From: Oscillospiraceae bacterium | GTDB taxonomy: Bacteria > Bacillota > Clostridia > Oscillospirales > Oscillospiraceae | Reading direction: 5' to 3' | NCBI GenBank assembly: GCA_902790375.1 | Contig: CADARY010000036.1 | Coordinates: 19,185-63,786 of the forward strand | Length of the DNA: 44,602 bases | In this document: in pieces, positions 5,407 to 43,384 of the stretch | How the letters are laid out: each line of letters starts with the position of its first letter | How positions within the stretch are numbered: position 1 is the stretch's first letter | Program-made: the position numbers and the translations under genes | The notes under the pieces: model-generated | What the model saw: the letters and a program-made list of their open reading frames with translations, nothing else | Databases searched by the model: none | Told to the model about the DNA's origin: nothing

Positions 5407-8400
5407 TCACTTCCTGCGCTTTACCAGCTCGCGCAGGGTTTTATAGAGGTTCTCCGGCTCTACGGGCTTGGAGAGGTGCGCGTTCATGCCCACGTGCAGC
5501 GAGTTCTGCACATCTTCATCAAAGGCGTTGGCGGTCATGGCGATGATGGGGATCTCTTTGGCGTCGGGACGCGGGAGCGCACGAATCGCGGCGGTGGCCT
5601 TCAGACCGTCCATCACGGGCATGCGCACGTCCATCAAAATCGCGTCGTAGTAATCTGCCTCATGCTGCGAGAACATGTCCACGGCGATCTGGCCGTTTTC
5701 GGCATGCTCGGAGCGGATGCCCTCCATTTCCAGGAGATCCGTCAGGATCTCGGCGTTGAGGTCGATATCCTCCGCCATCAGCACGCGCAGACCCTCGAGA
5801 GAGTCCGGCTCTTCCTCAGCGGCGGGCTCCGGCTTCGGCGCGGCAATATCGCCGCGCTTGAGCAGGATGGAGTGCAGCTCGTTGAGCACACTGTCGGTAA
5901 AGAGGGGCTTGGAGACAATGCCGGAAATGCCGAACTGCCTGGCCGGCTCCTGAATATCGTCCCAGCTGTAGCCGGTGAGAATCAGGATGGAGGTCTGTCC
6001 CTTGTCGAACTTGCGCACACACTCGGCCAGCGCAAGACCGTCCATCCCGGGCATGTACATATCCGTCATCAGGATTTGATAGGGCTCGCCCCTGTCCCAG
6101 CAGGAGCGGATGCGGTTGAGCGCCTCGGGGGCGTCGGAGGCGGTGTCGGCCTCGATGCCGATGTCGTGCAGCACGATGCGCGCATGCTCCAGCGCCACCT
6201 CGTCATCATCCACCACCAGGATGCGCAGGCCCTTGGGGAGGCTTGCGTGCTGATCCTGGCTGAAGCTGCGCTCGGAGGGCTTGAGCGTTACCGTGACCGT
6301 GAAGGTGGTCCCGACGCCCTTCTCACTCTCCACGGAGATATCACCGTTCATCATCTCCACGAGATTTTTGGTGATGGCCATGCCGAGGCCCGTGCTGCCG
6401 TAGCGGTTGGCGGTGCCGGAATCCTCCTGGGAGAAGGTGTCGAAAATCTTCGGCAGAAATTCCTTGCTCATGCCGATGCCGGTGTCCTTCATGAGAAAGC
6501 GCAGGGTGCACTGCTCGGAGGTGCGGGCGATCTGCTCGACCGTAAAGGTGACGCTGCCGGAGGCGGGCGTGAATTTGACGGCGTTGCCGAGTATGTTGAT
6601 GAGCACCTGCTTGAGCTTCATGGAGTCGCCGATGTAAAAATCGCAGACCTGGCCGATGATGTTGCAGGAATAGTCCAGGCCCTTGTCCTGACACTGGCCG
6701 TTGATGATGACGTTGATCTGGTCGAGGAAGTCACGGAAGGCAAATTCCTCCTCCTTGAGGACCATACGCCCGGACTCGATGCGGCTCATGTCCAGAATGT
6801 CGTTGATCAGGCCCAGAAGATGCCGGGCGCTTGCGCCGATCTTTTCAAGATGCTCGCGCGTTCGCGGCGGCAGATCCGGCTCCTTCAGGGCGATATTGTC
6901 CAGGCCGATGATGGCGTTCATGGGAGTGCGGATCTCATGGCTCATATTGGACAGGAAGCTGGTTTTGGCGCGGCTGGACTCCTCGGCGAGGGCCTTTTCA
7001 CGCTCCACCTTCTTCTCACGCTTGTGGATCGTATCGTAGATGTTCACAAGCGTCACCACGGAGATGACCACAAAGGCGATCTGCACAAGGCTCTTCTGCC
7101 ACAGCGCATCGCTGACGCTCTCAAGCTGCGTGTCCACGTATTCCTCCGCCTTGAGCGGATCAGGCGTCGTACCGTCGTCGCTGTCGGTAAGCTGCTGCTC
7201 ATAATACTCATGGATATTGTTTACGGCATCGTATGCCACGGCCACGGAGCTCTGGCGCATCCAGACCAGGGAGGTGAAGAGCGTCAGCGACAGCATGACG
7301 ATCCACACAATGGTGGAGTGGCCCATGGACCGGGTCTGATCCTGTACAAGCAGCAAGCGGAACACGATCAGGCCCAGCACACTCCAGAGCGCGAGGATCA
7401 GGTAGGATTCCCTGGACAGCGCCGTCACGGCCAGCAGATTCGGGATCAGATAATACAGCAGGAAGATCAGCGAGATCACAACGCCGATGAGTCCGCAGGC
7501 GCTGACAAAGCTGTCCTTTCTTCTGCGCGCAAGCTTCAGCGCGCAGGCGGAGGTGTAGGCGTAGACGATGGCCGCGCCGACCGTGGTCACGTCCACGATC
7601 CAGCCCACAGCCGTCCGGCCGAAGAGCGGGATGAAGACGGAAACCAGGAGGATCAGCAGCACCGCGTATCTCGGCAGGCCGTTTTTGTCGAGCTGCCCGA
7701 GCTTCGCGGGCATCATCCCGTCCTTTGCCATGGCGTGGATCAGGCGGCTTGCGGCGATGGTGTTGCCCACAAGGCCGGTGATGACGCCGCCGAGCACCGT
7801 GAGGACCAGGACAGGCGTACCGACGGGCCCCATGGCCGTGCGCACCGCGTAGAAGGTGGGCGCCGCCTCGTCGATATCCAGATCCCCCAGCGCCGCGATA
7901 TACGCGGGCCAGCTTTCAAAGCCTGCCGGCTGAGTCGTCGCGGCGATGACCGCGAGCAGGGAATAGGCCGCAGCACCTGTGAGCAGGGCGATGCCCATGA
8001 CCGGCAGCGCCTTTGCCGTCGAAAAGCGGAACTCCGGCACCGAGTGGGAGATAGACTCAAAGCCCACAAAGGCCCAGGGGGCCATCGCAACGATGGTCAG
8101 CACCCCCGTGAGGGGGGATCTGCCTGGGGCAAAGGCGGGAGCAAGGGAGCGGAGCCCGCCCTCCAGCTTCGAGAAGACGGACACGGAGCAGACCAGGATC
8201 CCGCCGAAGAGCAGGAGAGCCATCACGATCTGCACACGCAGGGCCGCCCTGCCGCGCAGGCACAGCAGAGAGCAGATGACCAGCGCCCCGATCGCCAGCA
8301 TCAGCTCGCCCAGATAGATGTCAAAGCCCGCGATCCGATAGTGCAGGCCATGCTGGAAGATGCTGCCCAGCAGAAAACGGCCGATCAGCGGCAGGGCGGT

Positions 8401-8742
8401 GGCGTTGGCCCAGATGACGGCCACATAGGTCAGCAGCAGAAACCAGGCGGCCACAAAGCCGTGGTCGAGGTCAAAGCTGCGTTTGACATAGCTGTAGGCG
8501 CCGCCCGCGTCCGGATAGGTGCGGAGCATATAGGAATAATTGACGCCGACGAGGAGCATGATGAGCCCGCCGACGGCAATGCCGAGCACCGTGCCGAGAG
8601 GTCCCGCCACGGGCAGAAAGCTGTTGCCGGGCATCATAAACGCGCCCCAGCCGACAGCGCAGCCGAAGGACAGCGCCCAGGCGCCCAGCAGGGATATGCT
8701 GTGCGGGGCGTCGACGCCTGCGTTTGAAAGCTTTGTATTCAT
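5407..8742 (-). CDS. Amino acid permease (APC)-hybrid histidine kinase fusion with two receiver domains
   Basis: 1111 residues. Residues 1 to about 480 form an APC-superfamily permease: the first helix carries GWGAFMMPGN, and later segments include APWAFVGFESISHSVPEF and many hydrophobic helices. Two more membrane segments flank an approximately 70-residue outside loop. A coiled linker leads to a HisKA domain (NMSHEIRTPMNAI, His602), then a HATPase domain (DTGIGMS, GSTGLGMAI). Receiver 1 has Asp894 (MTDMYMPGMDG) and receiver 2 has Asp1038 (LMDVRMPVMDG), each with a KP lysine. Transporter-kinase fusions are known in CbrA-type kinases, which use an SSS/SLC5 transporter; an APC module is different. 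The likely role is sensing amino acids or their transport. The gene lies 49 nt after the Hpt gene and has its own AGGAGAGGAAGG site. Confidence 0.9.
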   Translation of the reverse strand: MNTKLSNAGVDAPHSISLLGAWALSFGCAVGWGAFMMPGNSFLPVAGPLGTVLGIAVGGLIMLLVGVNYSYMLRTYPDAGGAYSYVKRSFDLDHGFVAAWFLLLTYVAVIWANATALPLIGRFLLGSIFQHGLHYRIAGFDIYLGELMLAIGALVICSLLCLRGRAALRVQIVMALLLFGGILVCSVSVFSKLEGGLRSLAPAFAPGRSPLTGVLTIVAMAPWAFVGFESISHSVPEFRFSTAKALPVMGIALLTGAAAYSLLAVIAATTQPAGFESWPAYIAALGDLDIDEAAPTFYAVRTAMGPVGTPVLVLTVLGGVITGLVGNTIAASRLIHAMAKDGMMPAKLGQLDKNGLPRYAVLLILLVSVFIPLFGRTAVGWIVDVTTVGAAIVYAYTSACALKLARRRKDSFVSACGLIGVVISLIFLLYYLIPNLLAVTALSRESYLILALWSVLGLIVFRLLLVQDQTRSMGHSTIVWIVMLSLTLFTSLVWMRQSSVAVAYDAVNNIHEYYEQQLTDSDDGTTPDPLKAEEYVDTQLESVSDALWQKSLVQIAFVVISVVTLVNIYDTIHKREKKVEREKALAEESSRAKTSFLSNMSHEIRTPMNAIIGLDNIALKEPDLPPRTREHLEKIGASARHLLGLINDILDMSRIESGRMVLKEEEFAFRDFLDQINVIINGQCQDKGLDYSCNIIGQVCDFYIGDSMKLKQVLINILGNAVKFTPASGSVTFTVEQIARTSEQCTLRFLMKDTGIGMSKEFLPKIFDTFSQEDSGTANRYGSTGLGMAITKNLVEMMNGDISVESEKGVGTTFTVTVTLKPSERSFSQDQHASLPKGLRILVVDDDEVALEHARIVLHDIGIEADTASDAPEALNRIRSCWDRGEPYQILMTDMYMPGMDGLALAECVRKFDKGQTSILILTGYSWDDIQEPARQFGISGIVSKPLFTDSVLNELHSILLKRGDIAAPKPEPAAEEEPDSLEGLRVLMAEDIDLNAEILTDLLEMEGIRSEHAENGQIAVDMFSQHEADYYDAILMDVRMPVMDGLKATAAIRALPRPDAKEIPIIAMTANAFDEDVQNSLHVGMNAHLSKPVEPENLYKTLRELVKRRK

Positions 8743-8791
8743 TGCGCGAACCTTCCTCTCCTCTTACTGCCGGCGAACGGCCCGGAAAGCA

Positions 8792-9163
8792 TCAGAGACT
8801 CTGCTCATACGCGTGAATCCCGTCGATTGTACGCTGGTACATGTCGTTGATCCGGGCGAGCTTGTCCTTGATTTCGGCGTCTGTATATTTTCTCGGATTG
8901 CCGGGGCGAAACTCCTCGGTGATCTCCCCGACAGCCTCGGCGAGCTTGTCAAAGCCCATGTTGGCGCATACGCCCTTCATAGCGTGGGCGCGCTCAAAAA
9001 GCTGGGTGGGGTCCATGCTTCTGGCGGCTTCCATGAGGGAGCCGTTGAGATCGCTGCTGGGGAATTTCAAAACATAGCGGCTGATCAGCTTTTCCATTCT
9101 CATGATCTGAACGGCGTGGTCATAATTGCCGTCGATCCGGGTGTACAGCTCCTGCAGTGTCAT
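8792..9163 (-). CDS. Free-standing Hpt phosphotransfer protein
   Basis: 123 residues, all predicted helical and cytoplasmic. The Hpt signature AHAMKGVCANMGF contains the phospho-accepting His60, followed by the typical LAEAVGEITE helix. Hpt proteins carry phosphate between the receiver of a hybrid kinase and a final response regulator. Both hybrid kinases in this operon lack an Hpt domain of their own, and the REC-GGDEF-EAL gene overlaps this start by ATGA (9160-9163). The context therefore suggests it links the kinases to that regulator. Confidence 0.9.
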   Translation of the reverse strand: MTLQELYTRIDGNYDHAVQIMRMEKLISRYVLKFPSSDLNGSLMEAARSMDPTQLFERAHAMKGVCANMGFDKLAEAVGEITEEFRPGNPRKYTDAEIKDKLARINDMYQRTIDGIHAYEQSL

Positions 9164-10863
9164 ACTTTTCGCTCCTTTTTCATTTCGATTTCCTTGCGTA
9201 TCAGATTTTCAAACTCCTCCGCCGGCAGCGGACGGGAGAAATAATAGCCCTGTACATAGTCGCATCCGGCGTCCCGCAGCAGCGAAAGCTGGTGCTCGGT
9301 CTCCGCGCCCTCAGCCACGACCGGAACCTTCAGATAACGCGCAATGTCGAGGATCAGCTCCACAAGGCGAAAGTCCCGGTTGTTCTCCTCAATGTTCTGG
9401 ATGAACTTCATGTCCATCTTCAGCACATCAATCGGCAGGCTCGAGATGGTGTTGAGAGAGGAGTAGCCGGAGCCGAAGTCGTCCATCTCAATCTCAAAGC
9501 CCTTTTCGCGCAGCTTTTCGATGACGGCGACAAGCTGCTCGGCCTCATCCGTATAGGCAGACTCCGTGATCTCAAGCTTAAAGTCCTTTGTGCTCAGGCC
9601 GTTATCCTCAATGAGCTTCAAAAGCCCCTTCTCAAGGCCCGGATCAAATACCTCCGTGCGGGAGACGTTGACCGACAGCGGCACCGTCATGCCGAGCTTT
9701 TCCCGCCAGGCGGCGATCTGCCCGGCCGCCTCCGACCAGACATAGTTGTCCACCACATGGATGAGGCCGTTGCGCTCAAAGAGCGGGATAAAGTCGCCGG
9801 GACTGATAAAGCCCAGCTCCGGATGGACCCAGCGCACCAGCGCCTCGGCGCTGTTCAGGCGCGGGGGATCGGACTGAATGTCGTATTTCGGCTGGTAGTA
9901 GACCCGGAACTGCCGTTCCTCCACGGCCTGACGCAGGTCGTTGAGAAGACGCTGCGAATAGAGCTCGCGTTTATACATGTCCTCATTGTAGATCATGAGG
10001 TGGGTCTTGTAGCTGCCGCGCACCAGGTTGCAGGCTGTATGCGCCCGGTCAAAGAGCGTCACCAGGGAGACCCCGTCAAAGGCGGGGCATACGCCCATGC
10101 GCAGGCGCACGGAGACGCGGTGCGAAAGCTCGTTGAGCTTCTGCTGAAAAAACTGCAGCACGGTGTGATAATCCTCACAGTGCAGGCAGTAGAGGTCAAA
10201 ACGGTCGGCGTCCCTGCGGCAGGCAATGCCCTCGGTCCCGCGCAGAAACTCGCGGATGGCGTCGCCCAGGGTGCGCAGGATCGTGTCTCCGAACAAACGG
10301 CCGTTCAGGTCATTGACAGAGTGGAAGCGCTCGATATTCACGACGACGGCGTCCATGCTCCAGTGGGGGTGGTAGCGGTAGATCTGCTCGGCGTATTCAA
10401 AGAAGAAGCCCGGGTTATAAAGCCCCGTCAGCGAGTCGCGCTCGGCAGCGCGGATGAGCTGTCTGCCCTCGCTCAGTTCGATGATCCGCGCCACGCGGGC
10501 CAGGATCACCTCATGCGCGTCGTAGGGCTTGGCGATGAAGTCCGCCGCCCCGAGCTGCAGGGCTCTGAGCTCTGCCTTCTTCTCGGCGGTGAGCACAATG
10601 ATGGGGATGCGGCGCATCCGCTCATCGGCGCGCATGCGCTCAAGCACTTCAAAGCCATCCATCACCGGCATCATCAGATCCAGCAGGACAATGGACAGAG
10701 TGTTCAGATGGGTTTGAATGATCTCCAGCGCTTCCAGACCGTTTTCCGCATTTAAGATTTCGTAATCGTTTTCCAGGATCATGCCCAGAATATCACGGTT
10801 GAGCGCCTGATCTTCAACCACCAGTACCTGACGCTGGCGCTTGATCTGTCCTGACTTTATCAT
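9160..10863 (-). CDS. Response regulator with degenerate GGDEF and intact EAL domain (c-di-GMP phosphodiesterase)
   Basis: 567 residues from the ATG at 10863, chosen because AAGGAGG sits 7 nt upstream; 30 further in-frame residues upstream lack such a site. Domains: receiver, residues 10-130 (LLDLMMPVMDG, Asp62, with AKPYDAHEV as the lysine loop); GGDEF, about 145-300, whose signature has become RRDADRFDLY; EAL, about 320-560, with EALVRW (Glu340), KLEITES, MDDFGSGYSSL and VVAEGAETE intact. The protein should therefore hydrolyse c-di-GMP, and the dead GGDEF may bind GTP or serve as a scaffold. Phosphorylation at Asp62 by the Hpt protein would couple the kinases to c-di-GMP breakdown. Confidence 0.93.
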   Translation of the reverse strand: MIKSGQIKRQRQVLVVEDQALNRDILGMILENDYEILNAENGLEALEIIQTHLNTLSIVLLDLMMPVMDGFEVLERMRADERMRRIPIIVLTAEKKAELRALQLGAADFIAKPYDAHEVILARVARIIELSEGRQLIRAAERDSLTGLYNPGFFFEYAEQIYRYHPHWSMDAVVVNIERFHSVNDLNGRLFGDTILRTLGDAIREFLRGTEGIACRRDADRFDLYCLHCEDYHTVLQFFQQKLNELSHRVSVRLRMGVCPAFDGVSLVTLFDRAHTACNLVRGSYKTHLMIYNEDMYKRELYSQRLLNDLRQAVEERQFRVYYQPKYDIQSDPPRLNSAEALVRWVHPELGFISPGDFIPLFERNGLIHVVDNYVWSEAAGQIAAWREKLGMTVPLSVNVSRTEVFDPGLEKGLLKLIEDNGLSTKDFKLEITESAYTDEAEQLVAVIEKLREKGFEIEMDDFGSGYSSLNTISSLPIDVLKMDMKFIQNIEENNRDFRLVELILDIARYLKVPVVAEGAETEHQLSLLRDAGCDYVQGYYFSRPLPAEEFENLIRKEIEMKKERKV

Positions 10864-35540: not shown

Positions 35541-35705
35541 TGTGCAAATTTTTTAATCTTCTGCTGGACATATCCGCTTCCTTATGGTATTTTTAATAAT
35601 GTCAACAACATAGGGAAATGCTGCTTGACGTACATTCGTTTTCTCATATCCATCATTCGCGCCGTCACACCGCAGGTGATCGCGCATTGAAAGGAGATTG
35701 CCATT

Positions 35706-38270
35706 ATGCCTGATAAGAAGACAAGCGCCGGGAAAACCGCGAAGGAAAAGCCCTCAAAGAAAAAGACTGTGAAAGAGACGGCCCCGGAAATCAAGGCGCA
35801 GGAGAGCGCGGCCCCGGTCGTGGAGCTGACAGCGCCCGCCGAAGAGAAGGCCGCCCCCGTCGAAGAGAAGAAAGCGCCTGCCGAGAAGAAGGCGCCCGCT
35901 GAGAAGAAAGCGCCCGCTGAGAAGAAGGCAACCGACGAAAAGAAGGCGCCCAAGGAGAAGAAAACGCCCGCCGCCAAAAAAGCGCCCGCCGAGAAGAAGG
36001 CGGAAAAGGCTGCTGCGGCTGTGGAGGCAAAGCCCGAAGAAAAAAAGAAGACCCCGGCCCGGAAAAAGACTGTGAAGAAGGCAGAGAAGGTCACAGAGGC
36101 GGACGTGAAAACCGCTCTGTCCGCTGTCGTCTCTGAAGTAAGCGCTGCCGCTGAAGCCGCCGCCAAGGAGGCTGAGGCTGAGAAAGCTGCGGTCAAGGCT
36201 GCCTATAACGAGACTGTGGCAGCCGTCAAGGCCGCCTATGAGGAGACTGCCGCCGCCGTCGAAGCCGCTGTCGATGAAGCTGCCAGGGAGGCAGCCGCAG
36301 AGGAGGCTGAGGCGAAAGCCGCTTATAAAGAAACTGCCGCCGCCGTCAAGACCGCTGTTACGGAAGCCGCCGAGCAGGCTGCCGCGGAGGAGGCTGAGGC
36401 CAAGGCCGCCTATAAGAAGGCCGCTGCCGCCGTCAAGACTGCTGTTAAGGAAGCCGCCGAGCAGGCCGCCGCGGAGGAGGCTGAGGCCGAGGCCGCCTAT
36501 AAAGAAGCTGCCGCCGCCATGAAGACCGCTTATAAGGAAGCGGAGGCGGAGGGAGCCAAGGCTGCCGCCGCTGCGGAGGCTGAGCTGGAAGCCGCCGTTA
36601 CGGAGGCTTATGAAGCCGCAGAGAGAGAGGCGGCCGGTGAAGAGATCATTTCCAAAGCTGCCGCCGGAGAAGCTGCCGCCGAGGAAACTGCTTATGAGGC
36701 GGCCGTTGCCGATACGCTCGTGGAGACTGCCAAAGCGATCGCTGCGGTTGCAGCCGCTGCCGAAGAACCCGTCAAGGAGGAAGTTATGGAAGAAGAACCT
36801 GTTGTTGAGCTGCCGCAGCCGCGCCGCAGCGTGGCCTTTATCGGCTCTGAATGCTATCCCTTTATCAAAACCGGCGGCCTCGGCGACGTGATGTACGCCC
36901 TGCCCCGTGCTCTTACCAAACAGAACTGCGATGTCAAGGTCATCCTGCCCCGCTACGCCTGCATCCCGCAGAAGTACCAGGAGAAGATGATCTACCGCGG
37001 CGAGTTCCAGATGGATCTCTGCTCCGACGGCCGCAGCTTCTATGTCGGCATCATGGAATACGTGTGCGACGGCGTTGTCTATGACTTCATCGACAACAAC
37101 GATTTCTTCAGCTGGGGCAATCCCTACACCGATCTCGTGCGCGATATCCCCAAGTACTGCTACTTTGCCAAGGCGGCTCTGGCTGCCCTGAACTATATGG
37201 ACTGGATCCCCGATATCATCCACTGCCATGACTGGCAGGCGGCGCTGGTGCCGGTGTATCTGCGCACCCTCTTTGCCGACTCTCCCGTTGGCCGCGCCAA
37301 GAGCGTCATTACCATCCACAACCTGCGCTTCCAGGGCATCTACAACATCCCGACCCTCAGCTACTGGACGGGCCTGCCCGGCTACGTGTTTGACTACGGT
37401 CATCTCAAGCAGGGCTATGAGGACGCCAACATGCTCAAGGGCGGCCTTGCGTATGCGGATATGATCACCACCGTCTCCAACACCTATGCCTGGGAGATCC
37501 AGACCGGCTTCTACGGCGAAGGGCTGGACGCCCACCTGCGCTTCCACTCCGGGAAGCTGCGCGGCATCGTCAACGGCATCGACGTGGAGCTCTGGAACAG
37601 CGCGACCGACAAGCTGCTGGCAGAGACCTATGATGTCCAAAACGCCGTGGAGAAGAAAAAGGCCAACAAGCTGGCCCTGCAGGCGGCCCTCGGCCTGGAG
37701 CAAAACGAGCACAAGATGGTCATCGGCCTCATCTCCCGTCTGACCGACCAAAAGGGCCTGGATCTTGTGAACGCTGTTTTCCAGCAGCTCATCGACGGCA
37801 ACACCCAGGTGGTGGTTCTCGGCACGGGCGAGAGGCGCTATGAGGATGCCTTCCGCTACTACGAGAATGCCAACCGCGGCACAGTCTGCTCTTACATCTC
37901 CTACAACGAGAACCTGGCCCACCAGATCTATGCCGGCGCGGACGCCCTGCTGGTGCCGAGCCTGTTTGAGCCCTGCGGCCTGACCCAGCTCATCGCCATG
38001 CGCTACGGCACGACGCCCATCGTGCGTGAGACTGGCGGCCTCAAGGATACCGTACAGCCCTATAACCAGTATACCAACGAGGGCAACGGCTTCACCTTTG
38101 ACCGCTATGAGGCGGGGCTGCTGCTGGATGCGATCAACCGCGCCAAGACCATCTACTTCACCGAGCGCGACCGCTGGGACGAAATGGTTGTACGCAATAT
38201 GGAGAAGGACGTTTCCTGGGAAAACTCCGCCCGCCAATACCGCGAGCTCTATCTGCAGCTCAGACCGTAA
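35706..38270 (+). CDS. glgA: Glycogen synthase (GT5) with a 360-residue Ala/Lys/Glu repeat extension
   Basis: 854 residues, against about 480 for usual GlgA. The GT5 domain starts near residue 375 (RRSVAFIGSECYPFIKTGGL, with the ADP-glucose-binding KTGGL) and continues through IHCHDWQAALVPVY, TIHNLRFQG, SRLTDQKGLD and FEPCGLTQLIAMRYGT. It extends alpha-1,4-glucan chains from ADP-glucose. Residues 1-130 are Lys/Pro/Ala-rich with KKAPAE hexads, and residues 130-360 are Ala/Glu-rich with four 29-residue units and likely form long helices or coiled coil. The start has AAAGGAGA. An internal AAGGAGG and ATG at residue 361 could give a second, canonical form of 494 residues. No other glg gene is in the window. 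Confidence 0.92.
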   Translation: MPDKKTSAGKTAKEKPSKKKTVKETAPEIKAQESAAPVVELTAPAEEKAAPVEEKKAPAEKKAPAEKKAPAEKKATDEKKAPKEKKTPAAKKAPAEKKAEKAAAAVEAKPEEKKKTPARKKTVKKAEKVTEADVKTALSAVVSEVSAAAEAAAKEAEAEKAAVKAAYNETVAAVKAAYEETAAAVEAAVDEAAREAAAEEAEAKAAYKETAAAVKTAVTEAAEQAAAEEAEAKAAYKKAAAAVKTAVKEAAEQAAAEEAEAEAAYKEAAAAMKTAYKEAEAEGAKAAAAAEAELEAAVTEAYEAAEREAAGEEIISKAAAGEAAAEETAYEAAVADTLVETAKAIAAVAAAAEEPVKEEVMEEEPVVELPQPRRSVAFIGSECYPFIKTGGLGDVMYALPRALTKQNCDVKVILPRYACIPQKYQEKMIYRGEFQMDLCSDGRSFYVGIMEYVCDGVVYDFIDNNDFFSWGNPYTDLVRDIPKYCYFAKAALAALNYMDWIPDIIHCHDWQAALVPVYLRTLFADSPVGRAKSVITIHNLRFQGIYNIPTLSYWTGLPGYVFDYGHLKQGYEDANMLKGGLAYADMITTVSNTYAWEIQTGFYGEGLDAHLRFHSGKLRGIVNGIDVELWNSATDKLLAETYDVQNAVEKKKANKLALQAALGLEQNEHKMVIGLISRLTDQKGLDLVNAVFQQLIDGNTQVVVLGTGERRYEDAFRYYENANRGTVCSYISYNENLAHQIYAGADALLVPSLFEPCGLTQLIAMRYGTTPIVRETGGLKDTVQPYNQYTNEGNGFTFDRYEAGLLLDAINRAKTIYFTERDRWDEMVVRNMEKDVSWENSARQYRELYLQLRP
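35871..35960 (+). repeat. 18-bp coding tandem repeat (KKAPAE units) in glgA
   Basis: Five 18-bp units starting at 35871, 35889, 35907, 35925 and 35943 encode KAPAEK-type hexads; the last two are degenerate. The peptide resembles Lys/Ala/Pro-rich tails of histone H1-like proteins, so it may bind polyanions, but that is inference. Confidence 0.8.
36231..36578 (+). repeat. 87-bp coding tandem repeat in glgA
   Basis: Units start at 36231, 36318, 36405 and 36492, exactly 87 bp apart, encoding 29-residue blocks of the form AAYKETAAAVKTAVTEAA then EQAAAEEAEAK. The last unit is degenerate. A shorter 33-bp step precedes the first (AAYNETVAAVK at 36198), suggesting an 11-residue helical period. Confidence 0.9.
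36774..36788 (+). promoter_or_regulatory. Internal in-frame ribosome-binding site and ATG in glgA
   Basis: AAGGAGG (36774-36780), 5-nt spacer, ATG (36786-36788) in frame with glgA, 14 codons before the GT5 domain. It would start a 494-residue protein of normal GlgA size. The strength equals the best start sites in the window. Confidence 0.6.
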
Positions 38271-38289
38271 TCGCCTGAAAGTGTACCGC

Positions 38290-38321
38290 AGACCGGGAGA
38301 CAGAAGCCTCCCGGTCTTTTT
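38290..38321 (+). terminator. Terminator of glgA
   Basis: AGACCGGGAG (38290-38299) pairs perfectly with CTCCCGGTCT (38308-38317) and continues into TTTT. Confidence 0.85.
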
Positions 38322-38350
38322 GTGATACTTCCGCAAAGGAATGGTGAGGT

Positions 38351-40863: not shown

Positions 40864-40887
40864 CCGTTCATGAACGGTCAGCTTTTT
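40861..40887. terminator. Bidirectional terminator between the CDF and feoAB genes
   Basis: TGACCGTTCATGAACGGTCA (40861-40880) is a perfect palindrome followed by GCTTTTTT and preceded by AAAAAAC. Both stop codons lie inside the stem: TGA of the CDF gene at 40861-40863 and TGA of feoB at 40868-40870. Confidence 0.9.
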
Positions 40888-43384
40888 TATGACTGTCGCA
40901 GGGGTGGGCGCAGTCTGCACAATTGTGATTACAGCTTGCGCAGTTGTGGCAGCTCCCGGTTTTGCCGGAGCGGATTGCCCGGACGGCGAAAAACACCATT
41001 GCCCCGATCGACAGAAGAATGAGAATGTTCCAGATGTTAATCCCACGATCAAACAGCGTGCCGAACAGGCGCACGAGCAGCGCCGCGACCCAGGCCAGCG
41101 CGCACTGCCAGAGCACCACATAGGCGGCCCACTTCCTGCCAAGCTCGCGCCTGATGGCGGAAATGGCCGCCACACAGGGTGTATAGAGCAGGCTGAATAC
41201 CAGAAGCGACGCCGCAGTGAGCGGGGTGAGGGCCGTGCGTATACCGCGGGCAAAGAGCAGCTCCATCGTGGAAACGACGCTCTCCTTGGCCATAAAGCCG
41301 CTGATCAGCGAGGTGACGATCCGCCAGTCGCCGAGACCGATCGGCTTGAAGAGCGGCACCAGCAGGCCTGCCGTGACGGCGAGGATGCTGTCCTGGGAGT
41401 TCGACACCATGTTGAAGCGGAAGTCGAAGCTCTTGAGAAACCATACCATGATGGTTGCAATCAGAATCACAGAAAAGGCACGCTGCAAAAAGTCCCGCGC
41501 TTTTTCCCACAGCAGCAGAAGGACGTTGTGCACGCTGGGCAGACGGTAGTTGGGCAGCTCCATCACGAAGGGGACAGCCTCGCCCTTGAAGAGCGTTTTT
41601 TTGTACAGCAGCGCCACCAGTATTCCCACCGCAATGCCGAGCAGGTACAGTCCGGTAATGATCAGCCAGGCGTTTTGCGGGAAGAAGGCGGCAACAAAAA
41701 AGCTGTAAATCGGCAGCTTTGCCGTGCAGGACATGAAGGGCGTCAGCAAAATGGTCATGTGCCGGTCACGGTCGCTGGGCAGCGTGCGCGTGGACATGAC
41801 CGCCGGCACCGTGCAGCCGAAGCCAATGAGCATCGGCACAATGCTGCGCCCGGAAAGGCCGATCCTGCGCAGCAGCTTGTCCATCACAAAGGCCACGCGG
41901 GCGATGTAGCCGCTGTCCTCAAGCTGGGAGAGGAAAAAGAACAGCGTCACGATCAGGGGCAGGAAGCTCACCACACTGCCAACACCCTCAAAGATGCCGT
42001 TGAGCACGAGACTCTGAATGGCCGGGTTCACATGGCCGGCCTGCATGGCCTGCTCGACGACACTGCCCAGGCGTTCGATCCCTCCGGCCAGAAGATCCTG
42101 CAGGAAGGGGCCGATGAGGAAGAAGGTCAGGAAGAACACGAGACCCATAATGCCGATGAAAACGGGGATGGCGGTGTATTTGCCGGTCAGGATGCGGTCA
42201 AGCTTCTCGCTGCGCAAATGCTCCTTGCTCTCACGAGGCTTGATGAGGCAGGCGTCGCAGACCTTGCGGATGTATTCAAAACGCATGTCCGCGATGGCGG
42301 CGCTGCGGTCGAGCCCGCGTTCGGTTTCCATCTGCACCGCGATGTGCTCCAGCAGTTCCTTCTCGTTCTGATCCAGCTCCAGCTGCTCCAGAATCCCGTC
42401 GTCGCCCTCCAGCAGCTTGCTGGCCGAAAAGCGCACGGGAAGCCCGACCCGTGCCGCGTGATCCTCTATGAGATGGCTCACCGCGTGCAGGGCTCTGTGC
42501 ACCGCGCCGCCGTGCTCCTCGGCGCCGCAGAAATCCTGCCGCAGGGGTCTTTCCTGGTATTTGGCGACGTGCACCGCGTGGCGCACCAGCTCGTCCACGC
42601 CCTGATCCTTGGCGGCGGAGATGGGCACCACCGGCACCCCCAGCATGGATTCCATGCGGTTGATGTCCACGGTGCCGCCGTTTCCGTTCAGCTCGTCCAT
42701 CATGTTCAGCGCCACCACCATCGGCACGTTCATTTCCAGAAGCTGCATCGTGAGATAGAGGTTTCGCTCCATATTGGTGGCGTCGACGATGTTGATGATG
42801 GCCTTCGGCTTCTCGTTGATCACATAGTCTCGGGAGACCAGCTCCTCGCTGGAATAGGGGGACATGGAGTAGATGCCCGGCAGGTCGGTAATGGAGGTGT
42901 CCGCATGACCGCGGATCACGCCGTCCTTGCGGTCCACCGTCACGCCGGGGAAGTTGCCCACGTGCTGGTTGGAGCCTGTGAGCTGGTTGAAGAGCGTGGT
43001 TTTGCCGCAGTTCTGGTTGCCGACCAGCGCAAAGCTCAGAACCGTCCCGTCCGGCAGGGGATCGCCCGTGCCCTTGGGGTGGAACTTGCCCTCCTCGCCG
43101 AGACCGGGGTGGGCGGCAGGACGGCGCTCGGCTGTTTGCTGAGGTCTTGCGGCGGCAGTCTCCAGCGCTTCGATCCCGATATTCTTCGCATCGTCCAGGC
43201 GCAGCGTCAGCTCATAGCCGCGCAGGCGCAGCTCCATCGGATCGCCCATGGGGGCGAGCTTGATGAGCGTCACCTCGGTGCCGGGGATCAAGCCCATGTC
43301 CAGAAAATGCTGGCGCAGCGCGCCCTCGCCGCCGATGCTTAAAACACGGGCGGACCGGCCCGCTTTCAATTCGTTCAGCTTCAT
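40868..43384 (-). CDS. feoB: FeoA-FeoB ferrous iron transporter fusion with Cys-rich FeoB-associated tail
   Basis: 838 residues. Residues 1-78 form a FeoA SH3-like domain (LIPGTEVTLIKLAPMGDP). A flexible linker reaches the FeoB G domain: G1 VGNQNCGKTT (from 121), VGNFPGVTVDRKDG, DLPGIYSMSPYSSEE, ALNMMDE. About eleven membrane helices follow, with the two Cys/Gate regions (VPMLIGFGCTVPAVMSTRT, LYTPCVAAISAIR). The last 60 residues add one helix and a tail with six cysteines (CHNCASC then NCADCAHPC), like the separate FeoB-associated Cys-rich proteins of other bacteria. It imports Fe(II). Confidence 0.94.
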   Translation of the reverse strand: MKLNELKAGRSARVLSIGGEGALRQHFLDMGLIPGTEVTLIKLAPMGDPMELRLRGYELTLRLDDAKNIGIEALETAAARPQQTAERRPAAHPGLGEEGKFHPKGTGDPLPDGTVLSFALVGNQNCGKTTLFNQLTGSNQHVGNFPGVTVDRKDGVIRGHADTSITDLPGIYSMSPYSSEELVSRDYVINEKPKAIINIVDATNMERNLYLTMQLLEMNVPMVVALNMMDELNGNGGTVDINRMESMLGVPVVPISAAKDQGVDELVRHAVHVAKYQERPLRQDFCGAEEHGGAVHRALHAVSHLIEDHAARVGLPVRFSASKLLEGDDGILEQLELDQNEKELLEHIAVQMETERGLDRSAAIADMRFEYIRKVCDACLIKPRESKEHLRSEKLDRILTGKYTAIPVFIGIMGLVFFLTFFLIGPFLQDLLAGGIERLGSVVEQAMQAGHVNPAIQSLVLNGIFEGVGSVVSFLPLIVTLFFFLSQLEDSGYIARVAFVMDKLLRRIGLSGRSIVPMLIGFGCTVPAVMSTRTLPSDRDRHMTILLTPFMSCTAKLPIYSFFVAAFFPQNAWLIITGLYLLGIAVGILVALLYKKTLFKGEAVPFVMELPNYRLPSVHNVLLLLWEKARDFLQRAFSVILIATIMVWFLKSFDFRFNMVSNSQDSILAVTAGLLVPLFKPIGLGDWRIVTSLISGFMAKESVVSTMELLFARGIRTALTPLTAASLLVFSLLYTPCVAAISAIRRELGRKWAAYVVLWQCALAWVAALLVRLFGTLFDRGINIWNILILLSIGAMVFFAVRAIRSGKTGSCHNCASCNHNCADCAHPCDSHKKADRS

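Follow-up and report, generated by a model that had tools for sequence, protein, structure and literature searches.

The locus considered here raises the question of whether a single gene for a glycogen synthase makes one protein or two, and of what a long, charged tail in front of the enzyme might do. Within the stretch of 44,602 nucleotides that was analysed (hereafter the window), a single 854-codon frame with an ATG start runs from 35706 to 38270 on the forward strand and encodes an 854-residue protein, in which a GT5 glycogen synthase (GlgA) is preceded by a 360-residue extension of Lys, Glu, Ala and Pro. A Shine–Dalgarno sequence for this long form, AAAGGAG at 35690..35696, ends 9 nt before the ATG, and the 243-bp gap upstream contains a promoter-like site on the same strand (35565..35593; TGGACA-17-TATTTT, with TG before the second hexamer), which is a consensus match only. 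The first part of the extension (residues 1–133, 35706..36104) consists of Lys/Ala/Pro/Glu repeats with an 18-bp unit and a net charge of +15; the second (residues 134–360, 36105..36785) is Ala/Glu-rich, acidic, nearly proline-free, built of 29-residue (87-bp) units and, judging from its composition, presumably helical. The 18- and 87-bp periods are among several tandem periods in residues 1–360. An internal AAGGAGG (36774..36780), which falls in Lys-Glu-Glu codons, is followed after 5 nt by an in-frame ATG (36786..36788), a candidate start for a predicted product of 494 residues. The catalytic region, placed by profile and alignment, comprises residues 376–854 (36831..38267), the Pfam GT5 match beginning at residue 376, 15 codons after the internal Met, and downstream lies an intrinsic-terminator-like hairpin (38290..38317, forward strand) with a 10-bp stem and then a T-rich tail. 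The initial annotation had described the in-frame extension with its ribosome-binding site, the Lys/Pro/Ala and then Ala/Glu repeats ahead of the GT5 enzyme, and the internal AAGGAGG and ATG just before it, and in all of this it was correct; the extended glgA is a real, unusual gene. An 860-codon antisense frame (35754–38336, reverse strand) covers nearly the whole of it, probably as a by-product of biased codon use in GC-rich DNA.

The best reading of the sequence is that the extended GlgA is a complete glycogen synthase of the ADP-glucose type and a working enzyme. Residues 376–851 score 540.2 bits against TIGR02095 (GT5 glycogen/starch synthase, ADP-glucose type; cut-off 328.45), whereas the score against NF001898 (GlgA equivalog) is 549.8 bits, below the curated cut-off of 603; by these profiles the extended GlgA is a divergent subgroup relative to NF001898. 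The KTGGL, HDW, SRLT-QKG and FEPCGLTQ motifs, which we take to contain the residues that matter for catalysis, align with those of solved GlgAs (2qzs, 1rzu) and, with small changes, with those of plant starch synthase 4 (SS4; 6gne). By sequence, the latter ranks first among PDB entries, with bacterial glycogen synthases also among the best. The full catalytic region and the active-site motifs of the bacterial GT5 enzymes (TIGR02095; 1rzu, 2qzs) are shared but, unlike 1rzu and 2qzs, where the alignment starts from residue 3, the extended GlgA adds a charged N-terminal extension of 360 residues.

The source genome, a draft of 3.1 Mb in 95 contigs that is 88.6% complete, also encodes a canonical GlgA paralogue (contig C5), which is 39% identical to the extended one, has an ATG after GGAGG approximately 23 residues before the KTGGL region and lacks the Lys/Ala/Pro tail; its gene adjoins those for a GH13-type enzyme and a NagB-like protein, and glmM. 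Contig C31 carries together glgC, a second glgC-family gene that is probably glgD, and the gene for glycogen phosphorylase, and glgB is found on contig C21. As glgC, glgB, glycogen phosphorylase and two GlgAs are all found, the ADP-glucose route is present, in dispersed form. Searching the same draft with a DNA pattern for KK-x-P-A-x-KK gave five matches, all five within the extended glgA, and no further copy of the tail was found among the 150 of 311 candidates scored, a count that should be read in the light of the insensitivity of low-complexity matching and the incompleteness of the draft.

There is good reason to regard the extension as part of the protein, as had been supposed. In 12 pairs of loci (with one locus used in two pairs, and with repeats that make the alignment uncertain and inflate dS), dN/dS in the 8 closest was 0.11–0.37 for the extension versus 0–0.05 for the enzyme, and in the more distant pairs it was 0.15–0.20 for the extension where computable. 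Because these values lie below 1, the extension is very probably translated. A reading in which the extension is untranslated and the internal ATG is the true start was rejected: the frame is kept in relatives, the dN/dS of the extension is below 1, and upstream starts are the more accessible, with a mean of 0.56 unpaired versus 0.42 internally (85 loci).

A match at E <= 1e-150 is present in 47 of 102 genomes of the genus, and 49 of the 50 places listed are at least 70% identical. Named relatives, among the top 80 out of 248 confirmed stretches, are mostly rumen or ruminant-gut metagenome bins, and their labels disagree (Ruminococcaceae, Oscillospiraceae or Lachnospiraceae). Besides the window record, 105 distinct loci carry the start motif of the enzyme; removal of 9 with a truncated frame left 96. 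Starts were taken as the most upstream ATG with a Shine–Dalgarno match of at least 5 bases, relaxed if there was none, a rule by which extension lengths may be off; with it, the distance from start to IGSE motif has a median of 151.5 codons (range 14–378), and 85 of the 96 loci have 60 or more extension codons ahead of the motif. Conservation of the extension in related GlgAs thus extends across the clade. Outside it, sister GlgAs of approximately 50% identity found in other parts of the class (L156–L182; 27 scanned, 17 readable) lack the extension in all 17 readable cases, each starting 8–9 codons before the Glu of the motif. A FastTree tree of the 96 loci and 10 outgroups groups the 96 together, with support of 0.53 at the node and 0.65 on the branch, and within this group 10 members with short tails (<45 residues) are scattered (L128, L137, L056, L094/L114/L117, L123, L087 and L057/L067). 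Since the 96 group together with short tails scattered among them, the most likely history is a single gain of the extension at the root of this GlgA clade, a node of low support, with shortening or loss on several later occasions. In L128, L137 and L056 the tail is almost nil (5–16 residues); it is therefore dispensable. The extension is the hallmark of a GlgA clade that is separate from the canonical GlgA of the genome.

Other extended GlgAs in the class were sought as long open frames in other families, with 17 stretches scanned (L188–L203 and L205), in 15 of which the start motif is visible (the exceptions being L201 and L205). One of the 15, L203, is an extended-type relative of the same family. 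The other 14 were rejected, having a Met 8–12 codons before the Glu of the motif, and their extra open frame would have to lie C-terminally; in L202 the open frame measures 93 codons, but an ATG with a 7-base Shine–Dalgarno lies 9 codons before that Glu. No conserved operon surrounds the extended glgA beyond the closest clade, and in most loci the neighbouring genes give no pathway link. In seven more distant loci (L143, at 7923–9701, with the same cluster in L100, L104, L127, L128, L132 and L148) the strand of the extended glgA also carries a GH13 alpha-amylase-type gene, which in L143, the one locus where the position was checked, is directly upstream.

Both the sequence and the repeat number of the extension vary between loci: aligned extensions in the 12 pairs are 0.38–0.95 identical, and proteins whose enzymes are at least 99% identical range from 799 to 872 residues in length. 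Across the 88 loci with at least 40 extension residues, Ala, Lys, Glu, Pro and Val make up a median of 82%; aromatic residues account for 0.43% of the extension. The median net charge over these loci changes from +7 in the first half to −8 in the second. Of the 88, 79 have a net positive first half (9 do not) and 67 a net negative second half (21 do not), and in 82 the first half is more positive than the second, leaving 6 without the basic-then-acidic order. Over 1000 shuffles the mean number of loci with this order was 41.4 and the maximum 56, and dereplication by enzyme identity leaves it in 63 of 67 loci at 95%, 53 of 56 at 90% and 35 of 36 at 85%. In the window, the basic segment (residues 4–125) has a net charge of +18 and the acidic segment (131–368) of −34; for the whole extension the value is −17, with a median of 0 across the 88 loci. 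The Ala/Glu repeats have an amphipathic periodicity of 0.51, which does not clearly exceed that of shuffles (mean 0.33, maximum 0.67), and a Pfam search of residues 1–360 at E up to 1 returned a single match, unrelated and far below its cut-off. From its composition, the tail is probably disordered to helical. The best explanation for these sequences would be that selection keeps the composition and charge order of the extension more than its sequence, and that it evolves by in-frame gain and loss of repeats.

A basic outer half, an acidic half beside the enzyme and fast change of sequence together lead us to expect a multivalent electrostatic tether. The account that we tentatively prefer, without rating it as high as even, is that a single protein is the main product of the gene: a second GlgA that is a complete glycogen synthase with a translated N-terminal tail. 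Selection would hold the basic end outward and the acidic segment next to the enzyme; the basic end would bind anionic components of the cell and/or the acidic segment would bind basic tails of partners, for example that of GlgB; and the multivalent tail would thereby gather and concentrate GlgA at sites of glycogen synthesis. The tethering and the partners are things that we infer from charge and composition. The suggestion that the extension acts as an anchor or scaffold is a plausible one.

GlgB is a possible partner of the GlgA tail, and a lead to follow. The GlgB of the window genome (L223:1283-3535, on contig C21) has a basic C-terminal tail of 65 residues. In this genome and nine near ones (L225–L233) the GlgB tails are 57–75 residues long with a net charge of +2 to +10, and all ten end, with variation, in a conserved helix-like segment, AILKAV..SGKS.DEI.AFL.K, which in the window genome reads AILKAVKKSGKSFDEIIAFLKK and was not found elsewhere in that genome. 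Sixty further GlgBs from the genus were read; their tails are nearly all basic, and 59 are shorter, at 6–52 residues, the exception (G106) having 82. GlgB tails are longer in genomes with an extended GlgA (medians 21 versus 11 in 23 versus 37 genomes; Mann–Whitney P = 0.0004), in a test that ignores kinship, takes one GlgB per genome from the 60 of 84 genomes with GlgB and leaves out the window clade of 10 loci. One member of that clade, G078, has a long GlgB tail and no extended GlgA detected.

The alternative that survives best, although we consider it unlikely, is that the extension is a low-complexity polyampholyte that keeps the enzyme soluble, or spaced on a crowded glycogen particle as an entropic bristle, with no specific partner. 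The weak constraint on sequence, the variable length and the near lack of aromatic residues would all suit such a tail. However, a tail of this kind alone would not require the basic-then-acidic order to be conserved, and the canonical paralogue and the readable sister GlgAs lack one.

The proposal of the initial annotation that two proteins are made now appears improbable; spelled out here, it would have an anchored scaffold as the long form and a soluble enzyme of 494 residues from the internal start, in the manner of the long and short forms of CcmM. Bacterial pairs of N-terminal proteoforms are known, one source naming CcmM, IF2 and CheA (PMC11005335), and these provide a precedent: like them, the extended glgA has an in-frame candidate internal start with a Shine–Dalgarno before a complete domain. 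Further evidence for dual translation is that the RNA around the AAGGAGG-5 nt-ATG (36774–36788) is 0.62 unpaired, with 1% of 400 synonymous shuffles as open. Ranked by openness among 85 loci, L149 is first, L032 (a 99% relative) fifth and L001 (the locus in the window) sixth, the same position also being open in L034, L037–L039, L149 and L150. Added to this is the presence of a Met 12–24 residues before the motif in 12 of 121 proteins (P0001–P0121; motif unreadable in P0110 and P0116), namely P0001–P0004 (99% identity; P0001 is encoded in the window), five of the six in P0006–P0011 (95%), P0005, P0017 and P0034. It is kept in nine of the ten proteins whose enzymes are at least 95% identical (P0001–P0004 and P0006–P0011, that of the window included), and the window and L032 share 37 consecutive identical codons around the site. 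Against this, P0009–P0011 are near-duplicates, the Met of P0006 lies farther from the Lys-Glu-Glu stretch, and identical runs of 29, 32 and 42 codons occur elsewhere in the extended glgA.

With so many Lys and Glu codons in the extension, an internal Shine–Dalgarno arises easily. When its synonymous codons were shuffled, a Shine–Dalgarno of at least 7 bases appeared at the internal ATG in 2220 of 5000 cases (44%), and the 378 codons from start to IGSE motif hold 13 GGAGG and two AAGGAGG. In the last 30 codons before IGSE, an ATG with at least 6 bases of Shine–Dalgarno is seen in 3 of 96 loci (L001, L032 and L149, two of which are one lineage) versus 2.0 expected from synonymous shuffling, and one with at least 5 bases in 5 versus 3.6. 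The largest excess, of about two standard deviations, concerns any start codon with at least 6 bases (9 loci versus 5.3 expected, sd 1.8); this favours dual translation. Across whole extensions of the 96 loci there is no excess (17 seen versus 18.7 expected). Seven of the nearest ten loci have some start codon with a match of at least 5 bases (P = 0.023), a count that becomes four of six (P = 0.14), no longer a clear excess, when near-duplicates are removed from the nearest clade; for ATG only, the corresponding values are P = 0.22 and P = 0.40. The 75 more distant loci give 5 versus 2.7 (P = 0.06) for any start with at least 6 bases and 1 versus 1.2 for ATG alone. Unlike in the CcmM, IF2 and CheA pairs, then, the site occurs near chance frequency and is not conserved in long-form orthologues beyond the nearest relatives, being missing in most of those with the extension. 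Its conservation in relatives that keep the extension was the check set beforehand; the result leaves two proteins as a conserved device unsupported. The most reasonable view of the internal ATG is that it arose as a side effect of Lys/Glu codons together with a recent Met, codon content probably explaining most of it, although in the closest lineage it may be leaky or in use. It should be noted that Glu/Lys-rich tails can yield good-looking internal ribosome-binding sites from codon content alone. L149, a distant orthologue from the uncultured Firmicutes SI.B24, has its own ATG and Shine–Dalgarno 20 codons before IGSE and the most open RNA of the 85 loci at the tested position, and is possibly an independent case of an internal start.

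Somewhat doubtful too, and to be given little weight, is a nucleoid tether, in which the basic end would bind DNA non-specifically and space glycogen granules, as has been proposed for PhaF with PHA and for AlgP with polyphosphate granules. Two sources link the Lys/Ala/Pro-rich tails of AlgP and PhaF to granule positioning and propose that they join a storage granule to a scaffold (PMC9239181; PMC13052382), and these proteins are the best functional comparison for the GlgA tail. The latter resembles these histone H1-like tails in being Lys/Ala/Pro-rich and of low complexity, with its basic segment at the free end. However, the whole-protein net charges are reported as +55 for AlgP and +35 for PhaF (PMC9239181), as opposed to the −17 of the window extension (+15 in residues 1–133) and the median of 0 over the 88 loci, and the repeats of the window are of the APAEKK and not the KPAA type. 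Moreover, unlike in AlgP and PhaF, the tail is mixed basic–acidic, N-terminal and borne by the synthesising enzyme itself. As charge balance and motif differ, we keep it apart from the AlgP/PhaF tails: by sequence it is like them in composition, yet no member of that family. Least of all do we favour a near-neutral expansion, very improbable in our estimation, in which slippage-prone Lys/Glu/Ala codons grow in a tolerant linker without function, since the spread of lengths among nearly identical enzymes and the short forms scattered in the tree are outweighed by a dN/dS well below 1, the charge order in 35 of 36 dereplicated lineages and retention in most of the clade.

Plant SS3 and SS4 are GT5 enzymes too, and SS4 has a long N-terminal region. 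The long N-terminal region of SS3 is reported to be sufficient for the SS3 localisation pattern (PMC8494965), but no starch-binding domain of the SS3 type, or other Pfam domain, was found in residues 1–360 of the extended GlgA. The word glycogen is absent by term search from the main text of a 2025 review on the positioning of bacterial organelles (PMC13052382), and according to a review from 2024 on the alpha-glucan enzymes of prokaryotes, bacterial glycogen lacks protein content that would cluster its particles (PMC11046441). Among top-ranked literature matches, with subscription journals thinly covered, we found no paper on a bacterial GlgA tail of this kind. The extension is the better finding than the internal start; this clade has probably given its second glycogen synthase a charge-patterned tail of its own. 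A GlgA with such a conserved tail is a concrete candidate for an organiser of glycogen particles, and the orthologues that have naturally lost it make the idea testable. The fullest version of the preferred tether, which we offer as speculation with rather low odds, is that in a clade of gut Clostridia the organiser tail on the second GlgA and the basic tail of GlgB would give organised, positioned or condensed glycogen, a counterpart for this polymer of granule positioning by PhaF and AlgP; the length of the tail would be adjusted through the number of repeats and also, in the closest lineage, through the internal start.

Some predictions among the relatives are irregular. In P0065 (873 residues), a related extended GlgA is predicted in one frame with an upstream GNAT acetyltransferase, either a fusion or a read-through of neighbouring genes, and P0005 and P0040 contain internally duplicated stretches that are probably assembly artefacts. 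Elsewhere in the window (40871–43384, reverse strand), one gene with FeoA and FeoB domains encodes a fused ferrous iron transporter.
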